Shown here: in pieces, positions 3,634-19,855 of the stretch
How the letters are laid out: every line of letters starts with the position of its first letter
Position numbering within the stretch: the first letter of the stretch is position 1
From: Erysipelotrichaceae bacterium
Lineage (GTDB): Bacteria > Bacillota_I > Bacilli_A > Erysipelotrichales > Erysipelotrichaceae
Length of the DNA: 64,000 nt
Assembly: GCA_016280635.1 (NCBI GenBank)
Contig: JAEEHC010000052.1
Coordinates: 1-64,000, forward strand
Direction of reading: 5' to 3'
Notes under the pieces: generated by a model
What the model saw: the letters and a program-made list of their open reading frames with translations, nothing else
Databases searched by the model: none
Told to the model about the DNA's origin: nothing
Program-made: the position numbers and the translations under genes

Positions 3634-5751
3634 ATGCTTAGAAACAAAAAGGAAAAGAGATTACTTATACTGGTTCTCAGCCTCATCATGGTGCTGACCG
3701 GCCTGCAGAGCGCGGTTGCTCAGGATGAAGAGCCTAAAAACAGAGACGTAGTAAGAGATGTCGTCGTGCAGTTGGGCGATGTTGAGTTTACCGAAAACCT
3801 CACCATGCATGAACTGGCGTCCATTCGTCCGGACATGAGCCTGCGGCCGTCAGTAAATCCCTGGACAGACCGCGTAAACAACCTCTGGGGTGTCGGCCTT
3901 AACGGCGTCGACCCCAATGACAAGCCTTATGTCGAGTCAGAAGAATACCCCTATACTCTGGTCAATAACGGTCTGGCCAGCCGCATCATGGTGCAGTTTA
4001 CAGGCATCATCCCCCGGTCCCTGCGCGAAGGCGAAGACCCCAATGATCCGGAAGTCATCAGAAAGCGTTCCATTGACGTTCCCGGTCAGTACAAGCTGAT
4101 CGATAACCTCGGAAATGTTTATTACACCTACTGCTGCGACGTAGCGACTGACGCTAACCTGCAGGATACCTATAACGGCAGAAATGTCGAAGACGGCAGC
4201 TATTACAGTACTCAGGATGCGGAACACATCCGCTATATCTGCATGAACGGCTACTGGGGTTCCGTCAGCGGCACCGGTTCACTGGAAACTTTCAGAGAAC
4301 TGTTATTGGAAAACAATGTTCTTACGGAAGCCGAAGCCCAGGCTCTCACCCATGGTGAAGCACTGACCGCTACCCAGGCAGCAATCTGGAAATTCGGTAA
4401 CCGCGAACTCTCTTTCGCCGTTGATGAGACGGTCGTTACCGGTCCGGCTCTCAAGAACTATAGCTTCAATTCCACGGACTATGAGTGGCTGGAAAACTAT
4501 AAGAACGGTGGCAACCAGATCAAGAAGATCTACGATTTCCTGGTCAAGGGGCAGATCGCTGCTCACCCGCTGACCACGGTCTTTACCAAGACCAACTCTC
4601 TCGATGACGTTGACATTACCGTCCGGGAAAGAATCTCTCAGGGACAGGCAACCGACAATGACATCTACCTGGCCGATATCAGCTTCGAAATCGGAAGTGA
4701 GATCATGGACAGCGATGATCTTAAGGTCGTCATCAGCCAGAACGATGTTGACCTGGCAACCGTGAACATGGAGACCGGTAAGGCATCATATCTGGTTGAG
4801 GGTCTGCAGCTGAAGGAAAACAGTGAGATCACCCTTCAACTCAGCGGCTCCCGCGAGCTCAACAGCGGCTGCTACATCTTCGAGGCCAAGGAAGATGCTA
4901 AAGCCCAGACGCTGGTCGGCGTAGCTGAAGGTACTCAGTATGTCGGCTTAAAGCGCACCGTTGAGTTTGATGTCGGTTATCAGACCGAATGCGTTATCAC
5001 CGGCGAAAAGATCCTGGAACACGGTGAATTGGAAGACGGTCAGTTTACCTTTGAACTGCTGGATGAAAGCGGCGAACTGGTTGAAGCTGTCAGCAATGAC
5101 GCTGAAGGCAAGATCTCCTTCACTCCGCTGCAGTTTACCGTTGAGGATCTGGACAGAACTGATGATGAAGGCTGCCTGAGCTATACGGTCAGAGAAGTCA
5201 TCACTGATGAAGATGACATCATCTTCGATCAAGCCGAAAAGACGGTAAAGATCAGACTGACCTTTGACGGTGAAGAATTCAAGGCTGAAGTAGCTGATGA
5301 TTCCGATGAACTGACCTTCATCAATAAGATGGTCTGGATCGAACTGCCGGTCCGCAAGGTCTGGAAGGATAATGACAACGAGTATCAGATGCGTACCAAG
5401 AGCATTACCGTTCACCTGCTGGCAAACGGTGAGGATACCGGAAGAGTGCTGGTGCTCAGCGAAGCCAACCAGTGGCAGGGAGTCTTCGATGAACTGCCGG
5501 CTTACCTCGATGGCGAAGAGATCGTCTATGAAGTTGAGGAAGAAAAGGTAGAAAACTACGTAGTTTCCATCACCCGGGAAAAGGATTCATTCATCATTAC
5601 CAATACCTACCACAGTTCCACGCCGCCGACCGGCGACCGTGACTCCGTAGGTTACTGGCTGATGCTGTTCAGTGCCATTGGACTGGCCATGGACCTCTCC
5701 TGGATCAGTGATACCTCCCGCCGCAACCGCCGGGAAGAAGAACTGGCATAG
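3634..5751 (+). CDS. Cys-Gln thioester-domain surface adhesin with pilin isopeptide-type and Cna-B-type domains and a sorting signal
   Basis: Signal peptide; thioester-type motifs 'YYTYCCDVAT' and 'TQAAIWKFG'; 'FTFELLDESGELVEAV...' isopeptide domain; 'PVRKVWKDNDNEYQMRTKSITVHLLANG' Cna-B; C-term 'TPPTGD'-TM-'SRRNRR'. Confidence 0.88.
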   Translation: MLRNKKEKRLLILVLSLIMVLTGLQSAVAQDEEPKNRDVVRDVVVQLGDVEFTENLTMHELASIRPDMSLRPSVNPWTDRVNNLWGVGLNGVDPNDKPYVESEEYPYTLVNNGLASRIMVQFTGIIPRSLREGEDPNDPEVIRKRSIDVPGQYKLIDNLGNVYYTYCCDVATDANLQDTYNGRNVEDGSYYSTQDAEHIRYICMNGYWGSVSGTGSLETFRELLLENNVLTEAEAQALTHGEALTATQAAIWKFGNRELSFAVDETVVTGPALKNYSFNSTDYEWLENYKNGGNQIKKIYDFLVKGQIAAHPLTTVFTKTNSLDDVDITVRERISQGQATDNDIYLADISFEIGSEIMDSDDLKVVISQNDVDLATVNMETGKASYLVEGLQLKENSEITLQLSGSRELNSGCYIFEAKEDAKAQTLVGVAEGTQYVGLKRTVEFDVGYQTECVITGEKILEHGELEDGQFTFELLDESGELVEAVSNDAEGKISFTPLQFTVEDLDRTDDEGCLSYTVREVITDEDDIIFDQAEKTVKIRLTFDGEEFKAEVADDSDELTFINKMVWIELPVRKVWKDNDNEYQMRTKSITVHLLANGEDTGRVLVLSEANQWQGVFDELPAYLDGEEIVYEVEEEKVENYVVSITREKDSFIITNTYHSSTPPTGDRDSVGYWLMLFSAIGLAMDLSWISDTSRRNRREEELA

Positions 5752-7898: not shown

Positions 7899-9188
7899 AT
7901 GAAGAAACTGCTTGTTTTCATGATCGACGCCCTGTGTTCCTGTGACATTGAACGCATGGCTGCCATGCCCAATTTCGGCCCGGTAATTAAGAACGGCTCC
8001 CATGTTCATCACCTGCTGCCGGTTCACCCGGCGCTGACTTATTGCTGCCATGTATCCATTCTTACCGGTACTTATGTCGACAGGCACGGCATCGTTTCCA
8101 ATGAGCGGCTTTTGCACTGTGAGAAGAACGATACATGGTATGGCTATAAGCGGCAGGTCAATGGACCGACCCTGCTGGATCACGCCCGTGAGCATGGCCT
8201 GACTACCTGTTCGCTCAGCTGGCCGGTATCGGCGGGGGCTGACTACACCTACAACTGGCCGATGGTCGTTCCCTATCACTATGATGGCTATGCCCCGCTG
8301 CAGTATCTGGAAAACGGTAATGCGACCCAGAATCTGCTGGATGCCTATTACTGGAAATATGGAAGATATATAAAGGGTAAGGATTCATCTCTTGACCTGC
8401 TTACAATGTCGGTTGCCCCAGACCTGCTCAGAGACTTCGGTCAACCTGATGTCATGCTGATTAAGATGTGCGACCTGGACTCCGCCCGCCACCGCTATGG
8501 TGTCTACAGTCAGCAGGCCTTTGATCAGCTGCGCAAGCACGACGAGGAATTCGGAGTCATCATGGAATGTCTGAAACGCTACGGTGATCCGGATAACACC
8601 AATATCGTCATCATGGGGGACCACGGCCAGACGGACATTGATGATGTTCTGAATATGAATGTCCTGCTCACCGAGGCCGGATTCATCCGCCGTAAGGACG
8701 GCAGGATCGTTGACTGCGACTGCTTCGCTCATTCCAACGGCCTGTCCTGCTACATTGAACTGAAGGATCCGGAAGATAAAGTCATGGCTCAGAAGGTCAG
8801 GGATTATCTGGAGAGTCTGAAGTATAATCCTGATATCCAGCTGCTTTACGTATTGGATAAAGAGGAGATGAAGAAAGAGTACCACCTGGCCGGTCCGTTT
8901 GACTTCGTCATTGAAAGCCGGCGCAACATTGCCTTTAACGACGATCCCGATACCCCTTATCTCTGGAACAGCAAGATCCCCGGAGACCATTACATCGGGG
9001 CCGCTACTCACGGCTCACGGCCGGACCGCGATGAGAATACCGCCTTTATCGCCTGCGGACCTTCGATAAAAAAAGGCGTAGTGATTGAAAGAGCGGACAT
9101 GGTCGATGAAGCCCCGACCATGGCCAGAATGATCGGCTTCGAAATGCCGGATACGGACGGCAGAGTACTGGAGGAATTACTGGTATGA
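7899..9188 (+). CDS. Alkaline-phosphatase-superfamily phosphodiesterase/nucleotide pyrophosphatase-like, cytoplasmic
   Basis: 'MKKLLVFMIDALCSCDIERM', 'HPALTYCCHVSILTGTYVDRHGI', 'NIVIMGDHGQTDI', 'GDHYIGAATHGSRPD'; internal ATG at 7899 preferred over the 7821 ORF start because of RBS and the hairpin overlap. Confidence 0.88.
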   Translation: MKKLLVFMIDALCSCDIERMAAMPNFGPVIKNGSHVHHLLPVHPALTYCCHVSILTGTYVDRHGIVSNERLLHCEKNDTWYGYKRQVNGPTLLDHAREHGLTTCSLSWPVSAGADYTYNWPMVVPYHYDGYAPLQYLENGNATQNLLDAYYWKYGRYIKGKDSSLDLLTMSVAPDLLRDFGQPDVMLIKMCDLDSARHRYGVYSQQAFDQLRKHDEEFGVIMECLKRYGDPDNTNIVIMGDHGQTDIDDVLNMNVLLTEAGFIRRKDGRIVDCDCFAHSNGLSCYIELKDPEDKVMAQKVRDYLESLKYNPDIQLLYVLDKEEMKKEYHLAGPFDFVIESRRNIAFNDDPDTPYLWNSKIPGDHYIGAATHGSRPDRDENTAFIACGPSIKKGVVIERADMVDEAPTMARMIGFEMPDTDGRVLEELLV

Positions 9189-13735: not shown

Positions 13736-16700
13736 ATGAGGAGGATCAGACATTTCTTCGCTCTCACTCTGACCCTGGCAATGCTGTTCAGCAATATGTT
13801 CACCACATATGCCAGCACCCTGCCGTCAGCTGAGAAGAATGTTTCCGCTTCCGGCACTACAGCCGTCAGAATCAGTGATGTTGATCCTGAGACGCTTAAC
13901 GTCCCCAGGATGACTGATACGGAAGAAACTGACAGCGCTGAAGCGCCTGCCCATAAGGATACTGACATCGTTCGAGTCTCCATCATTCTGGACGGCAAGT
14001 CCACGCTTGATGCCGGCTATTCGATTGAAGGTATCGGCACTAACAAGAAAGCAATTTCTTACCGTGCTGCTCTGGAAAAGAAGCAGAACAAGTTAGCAAA
14101 GACGATTTCCAGTCAGGTTCTGGGTGGAAAGGAACTGGATGTCAAGTGGAATCTTACCCTGGCAGCCAACTTAATCTCTGCCGAAGTTGCCTATGGCGAC
14201 ATTGAAAAGATCGCCGGCCTTCCCGGAGTAAAGGAAGTCGTTATTGAAAACCGCTATGTTCCCTATGAGGATGATTCATCTGAAGCTGACCGGCCGACGA
14301 TGGTAAATGCCCGCGACATGACCGGGACCAACGGCGTCAACGCCACCAAATATAAGGGTGCCGGCAGCCGTCTGGCCATCATTGATACCGGTTTGGACAT
14401 TGAGCACCAGTCCTTTGATGAGGAAGCCTTCCTGCATGCCATTGAGGAAGACGGTACGCTCGATCAGCTGATGACGGCTGAAGATGTCGCCGCTGTCTGG
14501 GAACAGCTGAACTTCTCCAGGAAGAGCCCGTCCTCAAGACCTGAAGGCTCATATTACAGTGCCAAGATCCCTTTCATTGGCAACTATGTTGATAATAACC
14601 AGAATGTAACTCACCTCAACGATACTCAGGAAGAGCACGGCTCACACGTAGCCGGCATCTCCACTGCCAACCGCTATGTCAAGGCGGCTGACGGTTCCTT
14701 CGTTGATGCCGGTGAGACATATGGCGTTGTCGGCCAGGCACCGGATGCCCAGATCTTTGTCATGAAGGTCTTCGGTTCCGGCGGCGGAGCCTATGACTCT
14801 GACTACATGGTAGCCATTGAGGACGCCATTGTCATGGGAGCCAGCTCAGTCAACCTGTCTCTTGGTTCCAGTGCTCCCGGTACCTCCATTAATACTAATG
14901 GCGCATATCAGACCATTTTCAACAATCTGGCCAACAGCGGTATTGTTGCCGCCATTTCCGCCGGCAACAATACTTCCTGGGACAGCAACAAGCAGCTGTA
15001 TGCCGATGACATCAACTATCATACCGGCGGCAGTCCGGGTTCATTCACCAATTCCTTCACGGTTGCTTCAATTGATGACACCGGTGTTTATGCTCCCTAT
15101 CTGCTGTTCGACGGCTCAATTGAAGTCCGTTATGCTGAATTAAGCGGCGGCACGCAGAAGGCCCCGACAACCAGCGTAGCCGGAACTTATGATTATGTAT
15201 ACATTGACGCTGTTGGTAATCCGGAAGAATACGAGGCCGTTGCTGACCTCGTTGCCGGCAATATCGCCCTGGTAAACCGCGGCTCCATCACCTTCGGTGA
15301 GAAGGCGACCGGTGCGGTTGGCGTTGGCGCTGTTGCCACCATCATCGTCAACAATCAGGCTGGTACGCTGTCAAGCTCAACGGTTGGCGACGACTATCCC
15401 TATACCAATCCGGTAGCTGGTATTCTGCAGTCTGACGGCGCAGCCATTAAGGCTCAGTCTGAAGAACACGATGCCGGTAGCTTCAAGTACTATACCGGAA
15501 CGATCAAGATCGGTTCAGCCGGTGACCTTACCCCGATGGCCTACTACAGCATGAGTTCATTCTCATCCTGGGGCACTCCGGGTTCCCTGGTTATGAAGCC
15601 GGAGATCACCACTCCGGGCGGCTCCGTTCTGTCATTAAACGGCTATCACAGAGCTCAGACCGGTGGCTATGCCGGCGGACATGATCAGTATGAACTGATG
15701 AGCGGCACCTCGATGGCTGCCCCGCAGGTAACCGGCCTTGTTGCCGCTATCGCTCAGTATTACCGTGAGGAAAACATTGCTGAGAGAACCGGCCTGTCCT
15801 TAAGAAACTTCGCTCAGAGCATGTTCATGGCTACTGCCGTTCCGGTAATTGAACAGCAGTCAGACCACTACTACTCACTGCTTAATCAGGGTGCCGGTCT
15901 GGCGAACCTGGAAGCCGCCGTTACCGCCAAGTCATTCATTCAGATGAGCACTGACGATGGCACCATTACGGCCTTAATGGGTTCAGCCGCGGACGGCAAG
16001 GTCAAGGCTGAAGTAGGCGATGACCCGGCCAGAACCGGTAAGTTTAACTACACCTTTACCATTACCAACTTCTCTGAGGAAGCAGTCAAGTACAATCTGA
16101 GAACTGACCTGTTTACTCAGGATCTGGAAGCCGACGATACGCTGCTGTCTCACCAGACTACTCCGATCGAAGGCACGACCACTTATGACATCAGCCTCCC
16201 GTTCGAGTCTCATGACGTCAATAAGGACGGCAAGACGGACAGAGATGATGTTCAGGCTCTGCTGGACTATCTGAGCAGGAAGAGCAAGGTTGAGATCGAC
16301 ACGAATGCTGCTGAGGTTGACGGTAACAAGGGCTTATCCAGCCGTGACGCCTTAGTTCTGCTGCAGATCATCAAGGCTCAGGAAAGTGCCGTTGGCGCTG
16401 ATTCCTTCACTTTACAGCCCGGTATGACCGCAACCATTACCGTTAAAATCGCCATCCCGGCCAACGGAAAGCTGGCCAGCAGAGAAAACGGCGGTTATGT
16501 TGAAGGCTTTACCTTCATCGAAAGCGATGATGACGTAACCTACTCAATCCCTGTCTTAGGATACTACGGCAGCTGGACTGATCCTTCCATGTTCGATGCC
16601 GTTACCTATGTTGAAAAGCTGTATGGCTCTGAACAGTCATCATACTTTGGTGCCACCAATACCAACGGCATCCGCTTCAAGAAGGACGCCTCTTCCACTG

Positions 16701-19700
16701 ATCAGTTTGTTACCGGCAACCCGTATGCGGTTGAGAAGAATTTCCCGGCCGATAAGCTGGCAATCAGAAGCGAAGGTGTTATCTTCTCAGCTGTCTATAC
16801 ACTGATCAGATTCGGCGGAACGGTCTTCCCGGCCGCTACCAATGCTGACGGCAAGCTGATCTGGCTCGGCTCCGTCAACCGGAATCAGGCTAATGCCTAC
16901 TATAACACTCAGGCTACTACCCCGACCTGGCAGCAGACCAACAGCCGGACCCTTAATATGAACCTTCAGGTAAGCTCCTTAGGCTTAAGAGAAGGCGAGC
17001 AGTTCACTGCCGGCCTGTATGCCCTGCCCGAATACTACGGTATCCTGGCTTCAGACGGAACCAGTTCTTCACTGACCAATGACCAGATCACCGCAGTTGT
17101 GGAAAGCGGTGCGATCGGTAAAGGCGGCTTCCTTGGCTTCACCTTTACCATTGACGATACCAAGCCGGTCATTGAAGAAGTAAACTTCACGGACAGCACC
17201 ATTTCCGTAACCGTTAAGGATGACAGATATGTTGCCTACCTCGCTCTGATGGATGTCTCCGGCCGGAAGGTCTTCGGATCCGTCGTTCCCGAGCAGAGTG
17301 AACCCGGCACTTCCGTTACCTATACCTTTGACAGGGAAGGCATCAACGCCAATGCCGTTGTGGTCTTCACTGGCGACTATGCCGGCAATGAAAAAGCCGC
17401 CATCTACCGGATCGGTGAAGGCGACATCATCATTGAAAAGGACATCTATGTTCTGTCCGACCTCCTGGTAGCCGGCAAGGATTACCTGATCGTCAACACC
17501 AACGTTGTTAGCAGCGCAAATGCCCTGACTCACAGCGGTGCCACCAAGGGTGTCGATGCCGTAACCGTCTTCTATGATACTGAAAGAGGCATTGCCATTG
17601 ACGGTAAGGAAGTTGATGATACCAGTGTCTTTACAGCTTCAGCTAACGGCAGCGGTGTATTGCTGAAAAACGGTGAGTACTATCTTACTGCCGGCAGAAG
17701 CGGTTGGAGCTACAATGTTACATTCACCACCACGGCTCCTTCAACCAGCAATTACTTTACTTACAACCCCGATAACCATGCCCTGGGCTACAGATCCGGC
17801 AACAATACATACTATGTCCGCTACAACAACGGTCAGTATACGGCAGCAAACTCTGTTTACCCGGTATATCTGTACGAAAGATTCAGCTATACGGAAGTCT
17901 TTGACGAAAACAAGGTTGACGAAGTCATCGTGACTCCGACAAGTGCCCGCATCTTCGTCGGCGAAGAACCGATTCAGTTCAGTGCTGAAGTGCTACCCAT
18001 TACCTTGGACGACAAGACTGTGACCTGGTCCTCTTCCAATGAAGAGGTTGCTACGGTTGACGCCAATGGCTTTGTTACCGCAGTAGGCGCCGGTACGGTT
18101 ACCATCAAGGCAACTGCCAACAAGGACAACACTACCAGTGCCAGCGCAACGGTTATCGTTGAGGAGCTGACCAGAATGGACGCTTCCATCAATGCCCAGC
18201 TCTCCGATGACGATGGCGATAAGTTTGTCAGCATTGACCTGAACACAGGCAAGACGACCACCTTAGGCACCGCGGCTGCTCAGCATTACGGCGGCGGCCG
18301 CAGCGGCAATGCCATTCTTGGCATGACCTCCTCTGGCGACATCGTCTATACCGTGATCACCCCCAATGGCTACATCAGCGATTCACCGGGTGGCTACGGA
18401 ACCACTTCCTATAACTCCAGAGACGGCGCTCAGCTGCCGTATCTGAAGGCTACGGTTGATGGTGAAACGGTTACCGAGGAATACCTTGGCCTGCATGTCA
18501 GCGCCAGCTATGTCCTGACGTTTACCCCGGACTTCAGCCTTTCCGGCTGGAATACCCCGAACTTAACAGCTATTGCCTATATTGGAACCGACCTGGAATC
18601 CAATCTGCATTACTACTATACTCTCAACGGAACCATGCTTGGTTCAGCGATTCTCGGAGTGGACGCTGATGAACCGGTTACTACCGATGGAATCAATGCG
18701 ACACTGTCAACCGGTACTGTCGGTTCGATTGCTAACCTGACAGTTTCCGCCAACAACATGTCCATGACCATCCTGTCTACTGACAAGTACTATGGTCTGC
18801 TGATCGTCAACAACGAAAGCAAGGAAATGTCCTTCGTTGACCTGACCGCTGATACCCTTAATGCCGTTAAGGTAGCTGCCTTCACCGGTGCTGACCGCAT
18901 CTCAACGCTCTACAACGATAACGTCGATGCCGATGTGGTCGTCCAGAATATTGACAGCCGTGACAGGTTCATTGCCAGAACTGACAAGAGCGGTGGCAGT
19001 GTCTATAAGATGGAAAAGCTCGACGTTCTGCAGGCTCAGGAAAAGGAAGCTGACGGCGGTCTTAACGCCATCAGAAGCACCACCTTCGTCAAGGCTCCGA
19101 CAGATAAGAAAACAGTTCCGATTGAGCTGACCAGAAGCAATCTGCTGGGAACCAGTGGTGACAGCACCACCGGTGACGACGGCAGTGCCATCGTGGAGAT
19201 CAGCGAAGATGAGATCTTCAATAACGGTCTCTATGAAGTAAGTTACGATCCCGATGAACTGACTTTCGTGGAAGCTACCTGCAGCGAACTGGCGGATTTC
19301 TATTCCGTCAATAACGATGAGGGAAATGGCGTAGTAACCGTTACCGCCATCAGCCTGGATGGCATTCCGGCCGGCACAGCGATCGCTACCATTACCTTCG
19401 AAGTCGGCTGCAACAATGCTGATGTGACAATCACCACTAAGGAAGTCAATGAGGAACTTGAACTCAATGACAGCATCGTCGTGACCGTTCAGGGCACTGG
19501 CCACAACTGGGGTGCTCCGGTGTGGAGTTGGGCTGATGATAACAGCAGTGCTTCCGCCACCTTCACCTGTGAAAACGACAGCACTCATACCGAGACCGTC
19601 GAAGCCACGATGAGTGAAGAAGTAACCAAGGAACCGACCACTGAGGAAACCGGCACAAAGACCATTACCGCTACGGTAGTCGGTCCGGATGGCGAAACCT

Positions 19701-19855
19701 ATACTGACAGCCGGGAAGTTGAGATTCCGAAGCTGGATCCGGTTATCCCGGATACCGGTGATCATTCTCACTTAGGCTTATATGCCGCCACAATGCTGCT
19801 GTCTGCTCTCGGCATGGCACTTGTTGTCATCAAGAGAAGAAGACAGATGAATTAG
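13736..19855 (+). CDS. Cell-wall-anchored S8 (subtilisin-like) serine protease, lactocepin/C5a-peptidase type, with dockerin-like, Big_2-like and cohesin-like segments
   Basis: Catalytic motifs 'LAIIDTGLDIEH', 'HGSHVAGI', 'SGTSMAAPQVTGL'; PA-like insert; 'HDVNKDGKTDRDDVQALLDYL...AEVDGNKGLSSRDALVLLQII'; 'VTPTSARIFVGEEPIQFSAEVLP...'; C-term 'IPDTGD'-TM-'KRRRQ'. Confidence 0.93.
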   Translation: MRRIRHFFALTLTLAMLFSNMFTTYASTLPSAEKNVSASGTTAVRISDVDPETLNVPRMTDTEETDSAEAPAHKDTDIVRVSIILDGKSTLDAGYSIEGIGTNKKAISYRAALEKKQNKLAKTISSQVLGGKELDVKWNLTLAANLISAEVAYGDIEKIAGLPGVKEVVIENRYVPYEDDSSEADRPTMVNARDMTGTNGVNATKYKGAGSRLAIIDTGLDIEHQSFDEEAFLHAIEEDGTLDQLMTAEDVAAVWEQLNFSRKSPSSRPEGSYYSAKIPFIGNYVDNNQNVTHLNDTQEEHGSHVAGISTANRYVKAADGSFVDAGETYGVVGQAPDAQIFVMKVFGSGGGAYDSDYMVAIEDAIVMGASSVNLSLGSSAPGTSINTNGAYQTIFNNLANSGIVAAISAGNNTSWDSNKQLYADDINYHTGGSPGSFTNSFTVASIDDTGVYAPYLLFDGSIEVRYAELSGGTQKAPTTSVAGTYDYVYIDAVGNPEEYEAVADLVAGNIALVNRGSITFGEKATGAVGVGAVATIIVNNQAGTLSSSTVGDDYPYTNPVAGILQSDGAAIKAQSEEHDAGSFKYYTGTIKIGSAGDLTPMAYYSMSSFSSWGTPGSLVMKPEITTPGGSVLSLNGYHRAQTGGYAGGHDQYELMSGTSMAAPQVTGLVAAIAQYYREENIAERTGLSLRNFAQSMFMATAVPVIEQQSDHYYSLLNQGAGLANLEAAVTAKSFIQMSTDDGTITALMGSAADGKVKAEVGDDPARTGKFNYTFTITNFSEEAVKYNLRTDLFTQDLEADDTLLSHQTTPIEGTTTYDISLPFESHDVNKDGKTDRDDVQALLDYLSRKSKVEIDTNAAEVDGNKGLSSRDALVLLQIIKAQESAVGADSFTLQPGMTATITVKIAIPANGKLASRENGGYVEGFTFIESDDDVTYSIPVLGYYGSWTDPSMFDAVTYVEKLYGSEQSSYFGATNTNGIRFKKDASSTDQFVTGNPYAVEKNFPADKLAIRSEGVIFSAVYTLIRFGGTVFPAATNADGKLIWLGSVNRNQANAYYNTQATTPTWQQTNSRTLNMNLQVSSLGLREGEQFTAGLYALPEYYGILASDGTSSSLTNDQITAVVESGAIGKGGFLGFTFTIDDTKPVIEEVNFTDSTISVTVKDDRYVAYLALMDVSGRKVFGSVVPEQSEPGTSVTYTFDREGINANAVVVFTGDYAGNEKAAIYRIGEGDIIIEKDIYVLSDLLVAGKDYLIVNTNVVSSANALTHSGATKGVDAVTVFYDTERGIAIDGKEVDDTSVFTASANGSGVLLKNGEYYLTAGRSGWSYNVTFTTTAPSTSNYFTYNPDNHALGYRSGNNTYYVRYNNGQYTAANSVYPVYLYERFSYTEVFDENKVDEVIVTPTSARIFVGEEPIQFSAEVLPITLDDKTVTWSSSNEEVATVDANGFVTAVGAGTVTIKATANKDNTTSASATVIVEELTRMDASINAQLSDDDGDKFVSIDLNTGKTTTLGTAAAQHYGGGRSGNAILGMTSSGDIVYTVITPNGYISDSPGGYGTTSYNSRDGAQLPYLKATVDGETVTEEYLGLHVSASYVLTFTPDFSLSGWNTPNLTAIAYIGTDLESNLHYYYTLNGTMLGSAILGVDADEPVTTDGINATLSTGTVGSIANLTVSANNMSMTILSTDKYYGLLIVNNESKEMSFVDLTADTLNAVKVAAFTGADRISTLYNDNVDADVVVQNIDSRDRFIARTDKSGGSVYKMEKLDVLQAQEKEADGGLNAIRSTTFVKAPTDKKTVPIELTRSNLLGTSGDSTTGDDGSAIVEISEDEIFNNGLYEVSYDPDELTFVEATCSELADFYSVNNDEGNGVVTVTAISLDGIPAGTAIATITFEVGCNNADVTITTKEVNEELELNDSIVVTVQGTGHNWGAPVWSWADDNSSASATFTCENDSTHTETVEATMSEEVTKEPTTEETGTKTITATVVGPDGETYTDSREVEIPKLDPVIPDTGDHSHLGLYAATMLLSALGMALVVIKRRRQMN

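Follow-up and report, generated by a model that had tools for sequence, protein, structure and literature searches.

A secreted S8 protease of an Erysipelotrichaceae bacterium carrying a dockerin and a cohesin that probably form a cognate pair

The window analyzed here comprises the 64,000 nucleotides at positions 1 to 64,000 of contig JAEEHC010000052.1 from an Erysipelotrichaceae bacterium (assembly GCA_016280635.1). It harbors one uninterrupted open reading frame (ORF) encoding a secreted multidomain S8 protease that bears, as the original prediction made from the sequence alone had proposed, both a dockerin and a cohesin in a single polypeptide (Table 1). The best-known role of cohesin-dockerin pairs is to hold different cellulosomal enzymes together. 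In this protease and its relatives, the two modules evolve as one functional unit, occurring either joined in one polypeptide, or on two coupled genes, or not at all, and it is probable that the protein is a wall-anchored cell-envelope protease whose dockerin and cohesin constitute a cognate pair.

Table 1. Coordinates of the protease ORF and of the features encoded in it (window positions; HMM, hidden Markov model; aa, amino acids)
Feature	Window position	Strand	Residues	Basis or remarks
ORF of the secreted multidomain S8 protease	13736-19855	+	2039 aa	uninterrupted; Pfam/NCBIfam
N-terminal signal peptide, MRRIRHFFALTLTLAMLFSNMFTTYAS	13736-13816	+	about aa 1-27	read from sequence
Peptidase S8 catalytic domain	14360-15838	+	aa 209-701	Pfam PF00082, E 1e-36
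PA domain, inserted in the S8 domain		+	aa 494-571	Pfam PF02225, E 2.7e-11
Fn3-like (fn3_5) domain, first half, split by the dockerin	15995-16201	+		AlphaFold2 strands, the last at aa 814-820
Type I dockerin	16211-16363	+	aa 826-876	PF00404, family HMM, PDB profile search, AlphaFold2 helices
Fn3-like domain, second half	16382-16558	+	aa 883-941	PF06280, positions 56-112 of 112
Big_2 immunoglobulin (Ig)-like domain	17915-18145	+	aa 1394-1470	PF02368, E 1.8e-14
Cohesin domain	19187-19456	+	aa 1818-1907	family HMM E 8.6e-30, AlphaFold2, Foldseek, Pfam matches of homologues
GHxWG surface repeat, uncharacterized	19499-19729	+	aa 1922-1998	also in other proteins of the genome
Sortase-type cell wall signal	19742-19843	+	aa 2003-2036	PDTGD, hydrophobic segment, RRR tail

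The dockerin and cohesin modules of the protease

The isolated dockerin segment scored 26.8 bits against Dockerin_1 (PF00404; cut-off 22.9), which was also matched by 40 of 46 homologous segments, and the family profile retrieved the CelS dockerins in the PDB with an E value of about 3e-10. On the whole protein, the same Pfam model reached only 18.7 bits, below its cut-off. The first calcium loop, DVNKDGKTDRDD, is canonical and of EF-hand type. The AlphaFold2 model of residues 734 to 958, built on a 41-sequence alignment, presented a mean predicted local distance difference test score (pLDDT) of 90.5 and placed the two dockerin helices (aa 836-847 and 869-885) between two strands of a sandwich. 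In this model, one Fn3-like domain, located after the catalytic domain, is split by the dockerin, and the relatives L033, L034, and L038 carry the same Fn3 domain uninterrupted, without the dockerin insertion. The Fn3 scaffold matched the Fn domains of SpyCEP, ScpA, and Vpr; in fact, the fold search with the combined model was dominated by this scaffold, with no dockerin entries among the best matches, and the dockerin call therefore rests on sequence profiles and the modelled helices.

Since Pfam on the whole protein was weak for the dockerin and blind to the cohesin, the analysis relied on domain alignments of relatives and on structure models. The Pfam Cohesin family (PF00963) did not match the window copy at an E value of 0.1; it was matched by 19 of 27 homologous cohesin segments (best E 2.3e-10), and the cohesin of a paralogue on contig C26 of the same genome lay above the family cut-off. 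The AlphaFold2 model of the window cohesin is an eight-stranded sandwich with core pLDDT values above 90, and its best PDB fold matches by Foldseek were nearly all cohesins, the top one being the non-cellulosomal cohesin of Clostridium perfringens GH84C (2jh2, E 4e-6). A BACON or Ig identity for this C-terminal module was excluded at the fold level by the modelled sandwich and these cohesin matches. Both modules were found close to where the original prediction had placed a type I dockerin (near 16210-16380) and a cohesin fold (near 19200-19440, its quoted core corresponding to 19220-19432), and in the HMM and structure checks of the two segments neither a loss of EF-hand loops nor an unrelated Ig or BACON domain was seen.

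The remaining layout is that of an S8 cell-envelope protease, with a PA insert and an Fn3-like domain accompanying an S8 domain whose triad (D217, H301, and S659, read from the motifs DTG, HGSH, and GTSMA) is intact and invariant between the window protease and the C26 paralogue. No PPC domain was found by Pfam. The cohesin lies about 940 residues downstream of the dockerin and adjoins the putative wall anchor, which scored slightly under the cut-offs of PF00746 (16.9 bits, cut-off 20) and TIGR01167 (14.5 bits, cut-off 15.9); one sortase above cut-off was found in the genome. Near the C-terminus lies a repeat of about 77 residues without a Pfam family (GHxWG...FTC...H), which also occurs in multiple copies in other large proteins of the genome (C79:9266-10144, C69, and C5) and in relatives. 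The genes neighboring the protease in the window encode parts of an ATP-binding cassette transporter and phosphoesterases, and they give no functional hint. Window positions 3634-5751 encode a pilin-like surface protein in which thioester (TED), FctA, and Cna_B domains were recognized.

Co-occurrence, splitting, and genomic context of the two modules

Subfamily dockerin and cohesin profiles were run over 273 genomes of the same family as the source; these profiles were built from the surveyed proteins, whose recovery is expected, and the informative result is the scarcity of unpaired copies. Among 44 subfamily dockerins, 38 lay on the same ORF as a subfamily cohesin, at distances of 28 to 1035 residues. 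The six others comprised four ORFs running off contig ends, one natural split (G240), and one case that was left uninspected. Conversely, all 12 S8 relatives devoid of the dockerin (11 ORFs plus L034) also lacked the cohesin. The dockerin site varies, being found in the Fn3 domain, in the catalytic domain (one L035 copy), or further downstream (L033 and L038), and a cohesin is always present. In the L035 case (8543-8764, from the Oscillospiraceae metagenome-assembled genome RGIG5575), the dockerin lies inside the S8 catalytic domain, shortly past the catalytic histidine motif.

Dockerins and cohesins were also observed in other protein contexts. The locus L074 (G055:C123:88000-90979, minus strand) encodes a secreted protein of 545 residues without a protease domain, in which dockerin and cohesin are about 30 residues apart. 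A small scaffold-like cluster lies at L076 (G135:C16:16000-26480), where a cohesin of this type is encoded by every one of three consecutive genes; the middle gene product (2016 aa) also ends in a dockerin, and the third presents leucine-rich repeats.

Several relatives carry the pair on two genes. For example, in G240, also an Erysipelotrichaceae genome, the protease ends without an anchor and is overlapped (TAATG) by a downstream gene for a 205-residue cohesin protein, which bears a separate signal peptide and terminates in a sortase-type signal, NPNTGD. In the Oscillospiraceae L035, two dockerin proteases each adjoin a gene encoding a cohesin plus three SLH domains. Similarly, the protease and cohesin genes overlap in Butyrivibrio sp. 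AE3009, where that cohesin is the only Pfam cohesin match of the genome. The protease was found in 20 of 79 Butyrivibrio-genus genomes searched. In each of these 20, the stop of the protease gene is overlapped by a following gene for a cohesin protein with a signal peptide, one of these partners bearing choline-binding repeats. A frameshift artefact was ruled out for the split genes, every inspected cohesin ORF having its own signal peptide. Split and fused cohesins could be aligned by profile (hhalign probability 96.5, E 9e-10). In a tree of the catalytic domains, quick, unrooted, and with some long branches, the split forms branch outside the fused ones, which fits a fusion of a two-gene system, with the direction unproven.

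The search of the source genome (1.87 Mb, 91% complete), a check that the original prediction had suggested, revealed two more dockerins and two more cohesins. The three dockerins, which the subfamily profile also finds, belong to the window protease, the C26 paralogue (42% identity to the window protease, identical layout), and a secreted glucosaminidase-like enzyme with a C-terminal dockerin on contig C51 (G000:C51:48061-51156; L018:5062-8157, minus strand). The three cohesins belong to the same two proteases and to a membrane-anchored protein beside the C51 enzyme, the latter cohesin being a weak Pfam match (17.4 bits). This neighbor combines an N-terminal cohesin-like segment with a cadherin-like domain, and it looks as if the enzyme and the adjoining protein make up a separate one-to-one pair of their own. 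A further weak PF00963 match on contig C18, in the ORF of an SLH-type surface protein, was set aside as apparently due to chance, since the subfamily cohesin profile misses it.

In this 91%-complete genome, no multi-cohesin scaffoldin was found, the cohesin matches being single and on different proteins, and no series of dockerin-bearing carbohydrate-active enzymes was present, the dockerins being restricted to two S8 proteases and the glucosaminidase-like enzyme. Since all three dockerins and all three cohesins are placed in two proteases and one adjacent gene pair, the source genome has no cellulosome, and cellulosome membership of the protease was rejected, in line with the original view of a wall-anchored protease acting outside classical cellulosomes.

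Possible roles of the pair

As the modules are either fused, encoded by adjacent overlapping genes, or jointly absent, the dockerin and the cohesin most likely bind each other, a prediction drawn from comparative sequence data. In the two-gene form, the simplest role would be the tethering of a secreted protease to the cell surface, as several cohesin partners carry a sortase signal, SLH domains, or choline-binding repeats. Where both modules share one chain, the pair would most likely bring the catalytic end back to the anchor-proximal end through calcium-dependent docking, either within one molecule or between neighbors, and such docking could brace the long stalk or keep the catalytic half at the wall after cleavage of the stalk. 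A more specific proposal, which we hold tentatively and as somewhat short of probable, is that gut Bacillota possess a class of surface proteases that dock onto themselves, in which a two-gene system of dockerin protease and anchored cohesin receptor would have been fused; the former contact would now serve as an intramolecular, calcium-dependent clasp by which the stalk is folded back and the catalytic half can be held at the wall when the stalk is cut.

Four observations weigh against a cognate pair working as a clasp or wall tether. The second calcium loop of the dockerin, EVDGNKGLSSRD, is degenerate, having E and K at positions 1 and 6, respectively. Between dockerin and cohesin, the proteases have spacers of about 390 to about 2000 residues, and hence no fixed clasp geometry is conserved. 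Most Butyrivibrio partner cohesins have no recognized wall anchor, which limits the tethering claim, as tethering to the wall is not universal. Finally, the mirror-tree correlation of dockerin and cohesin beyond shared phylogeny was low (partial r 0.28), with a larger value for dockerin and Fn3 (0.49); this analysis adds little and was set aside.

It is possible, if rather doubtful, that the contacts are intermolecular throughout, each dockerin binding the cohesin of a neighboring molecule or of the C26 paralogue to form a protease lattice on the surface with no self-clasp. The existence of two paralogues of the same layout in one genome, the two-gene versions, which act in trans by construction, and the widely varying spacer would all suit such a network. 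However, the high local concentration of both modules in one chain favors binding in cis unless the geometry forbids it, and many surveyed genomes show only one such protein, so that a paralogue partner is not required.

Recruitment of other proteins is unlikely. Under this alternative, the cohesin would capture dockerin-bearing enzymes and the dockerin would dock on a scaffold, as in the proteins ScaO and ScaP, without any mutual binding. Indeed, the cohesin of ScaP from Acetivibrio cellulolyticus bound the dockerin of Xyn10, and its X-dockerin bound no tested cohesin (PMC4217186); moreover, the source genome does encode an additional dockerin enzyme and an additional cohesin, both on contig C51. 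Nevertheless, these two are products of adjacent genes that look like a pair in themselves, the genome search found neither a multi-cohesin scaffoldin nor a complex of dockerin-bearing glycoside hydrolases, the single cohesin match of Butyrivibrio sp. AE3009 adjoins its protease, and the two modules are gained, lost, and split together. Still less probable is that the dockerin is a calcium-stabilized EF-hand insert stiffening the Fn3 domain and the cohesin-like fold a stalk module, co-occurring by common descent: the degenerate loop and the shared ancestry of the sequences, whose tree needs only five state changes, agree with it, but splits in several bacterial families keep the cohesin gene beside the protease, often overlapping its stop, the pair persists while the dockerin position shifts, and relatives without one module lack both.

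The cognate-pair reading implies a dedicated one-to-one pair that belongs to a single surface protease and whose arrangement, in cis or in trans, varies among the Erysipelotrichaceae, Oscillospiraceae, and Lachnospiraceae. Should its two halves bind as predicted, the pair would constitute a natural calcium-dependent clasp or tether, and its one-gene and two-gene versions would illustrate how receptor-ligand pairs become intramolecular locks. It would also suggest what isolated dockerins and cohesins do in genomes that lack cellulosomes, and may explain how rumen Butyrivibrio keep a secreted subtilisin on the cell.

Comparison with known systems

The window protease resembles the lactocepin, streptococcal C5a peptidase, and SpyCEP type in its S8 domain with a PA insert, its Fn3-like domains, and its putative wall anchor; to our knowledge, that type has neither a dockerin in an Fn3 domain nor a cohesin. 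OlpA/SdbA/ScaF-type anchoring proteins consist of a cohesin plus SLH domains, and the Oscillospiraceae cohesin-SLH partners share this layout but serve the neighboring protease gene rather than a cellulosome. As in the window, the cohesin of C. perfringens GH84C/NagJ and related complexes (PDB 2jh2, 2o4e, and 2ozn) is non-cellulosomal; in that species, however, cohesin and dockerin reside on different glycoside hydrolases and join them, whereas here either one protease carries both or two adjacent genes encode them.

Other reports touch on parts of this arrangement. In Ruminococcus flavefaciens, proteins that combine a single cohesin with a single dockerin are regarded as adaptors (PMC4081043), and a survey listed subtilases bearing dockerins alone (PMC2605481). 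In Butyrivibrio proteoclasticus, cell-bound serine protease activity has been described in a strain said to lack cohesins (PMC2914790), the enzyme being a possible member of the family of the window protease. Moreover, the PDB entries 8x39 and 8x3a, a 'serine protease' with a dockerin, were among the profile matches and may be a precedent; the literature search found no paper naming them. The same search, which covered few subscription journals, found no paper on a dedicated protease dockerin-cohesin pair or on its split and fused forms.

The combination of peptidase, cohesin, and dockerin is itself not unprecedented, since ScaO and ScaP of A. cellulolyticus and Pseudobacteroides (Bacteroides) cellulosolvens carry all three on one chain, inside cellulosomes (PMC3413522, PMC4217186, and PMC5590126). 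Like the window protease, these are secreted polypeptides that combine cohesin and dockerin with a putative peptidase, which in A. cellulolyticus is of the S8 type; they differ in belonging to large cellulosomes, in having PPC modules, and in that the cohesin of A. cellulolyticus ScaP binds the dockerin of another enzyme. The window protease, in contrast, has no cellulosome around it, a dockerin nested in an Fn3-like domain, a sortase-type end, and a module pair conserved as a unit across gut Bacillota. The one-chain combination was already known from the cellulosomal ScaO and ScaP; what the sequence comparison adds is the coupling of dockerin and cohesin as a probable pair that is either fused or split.

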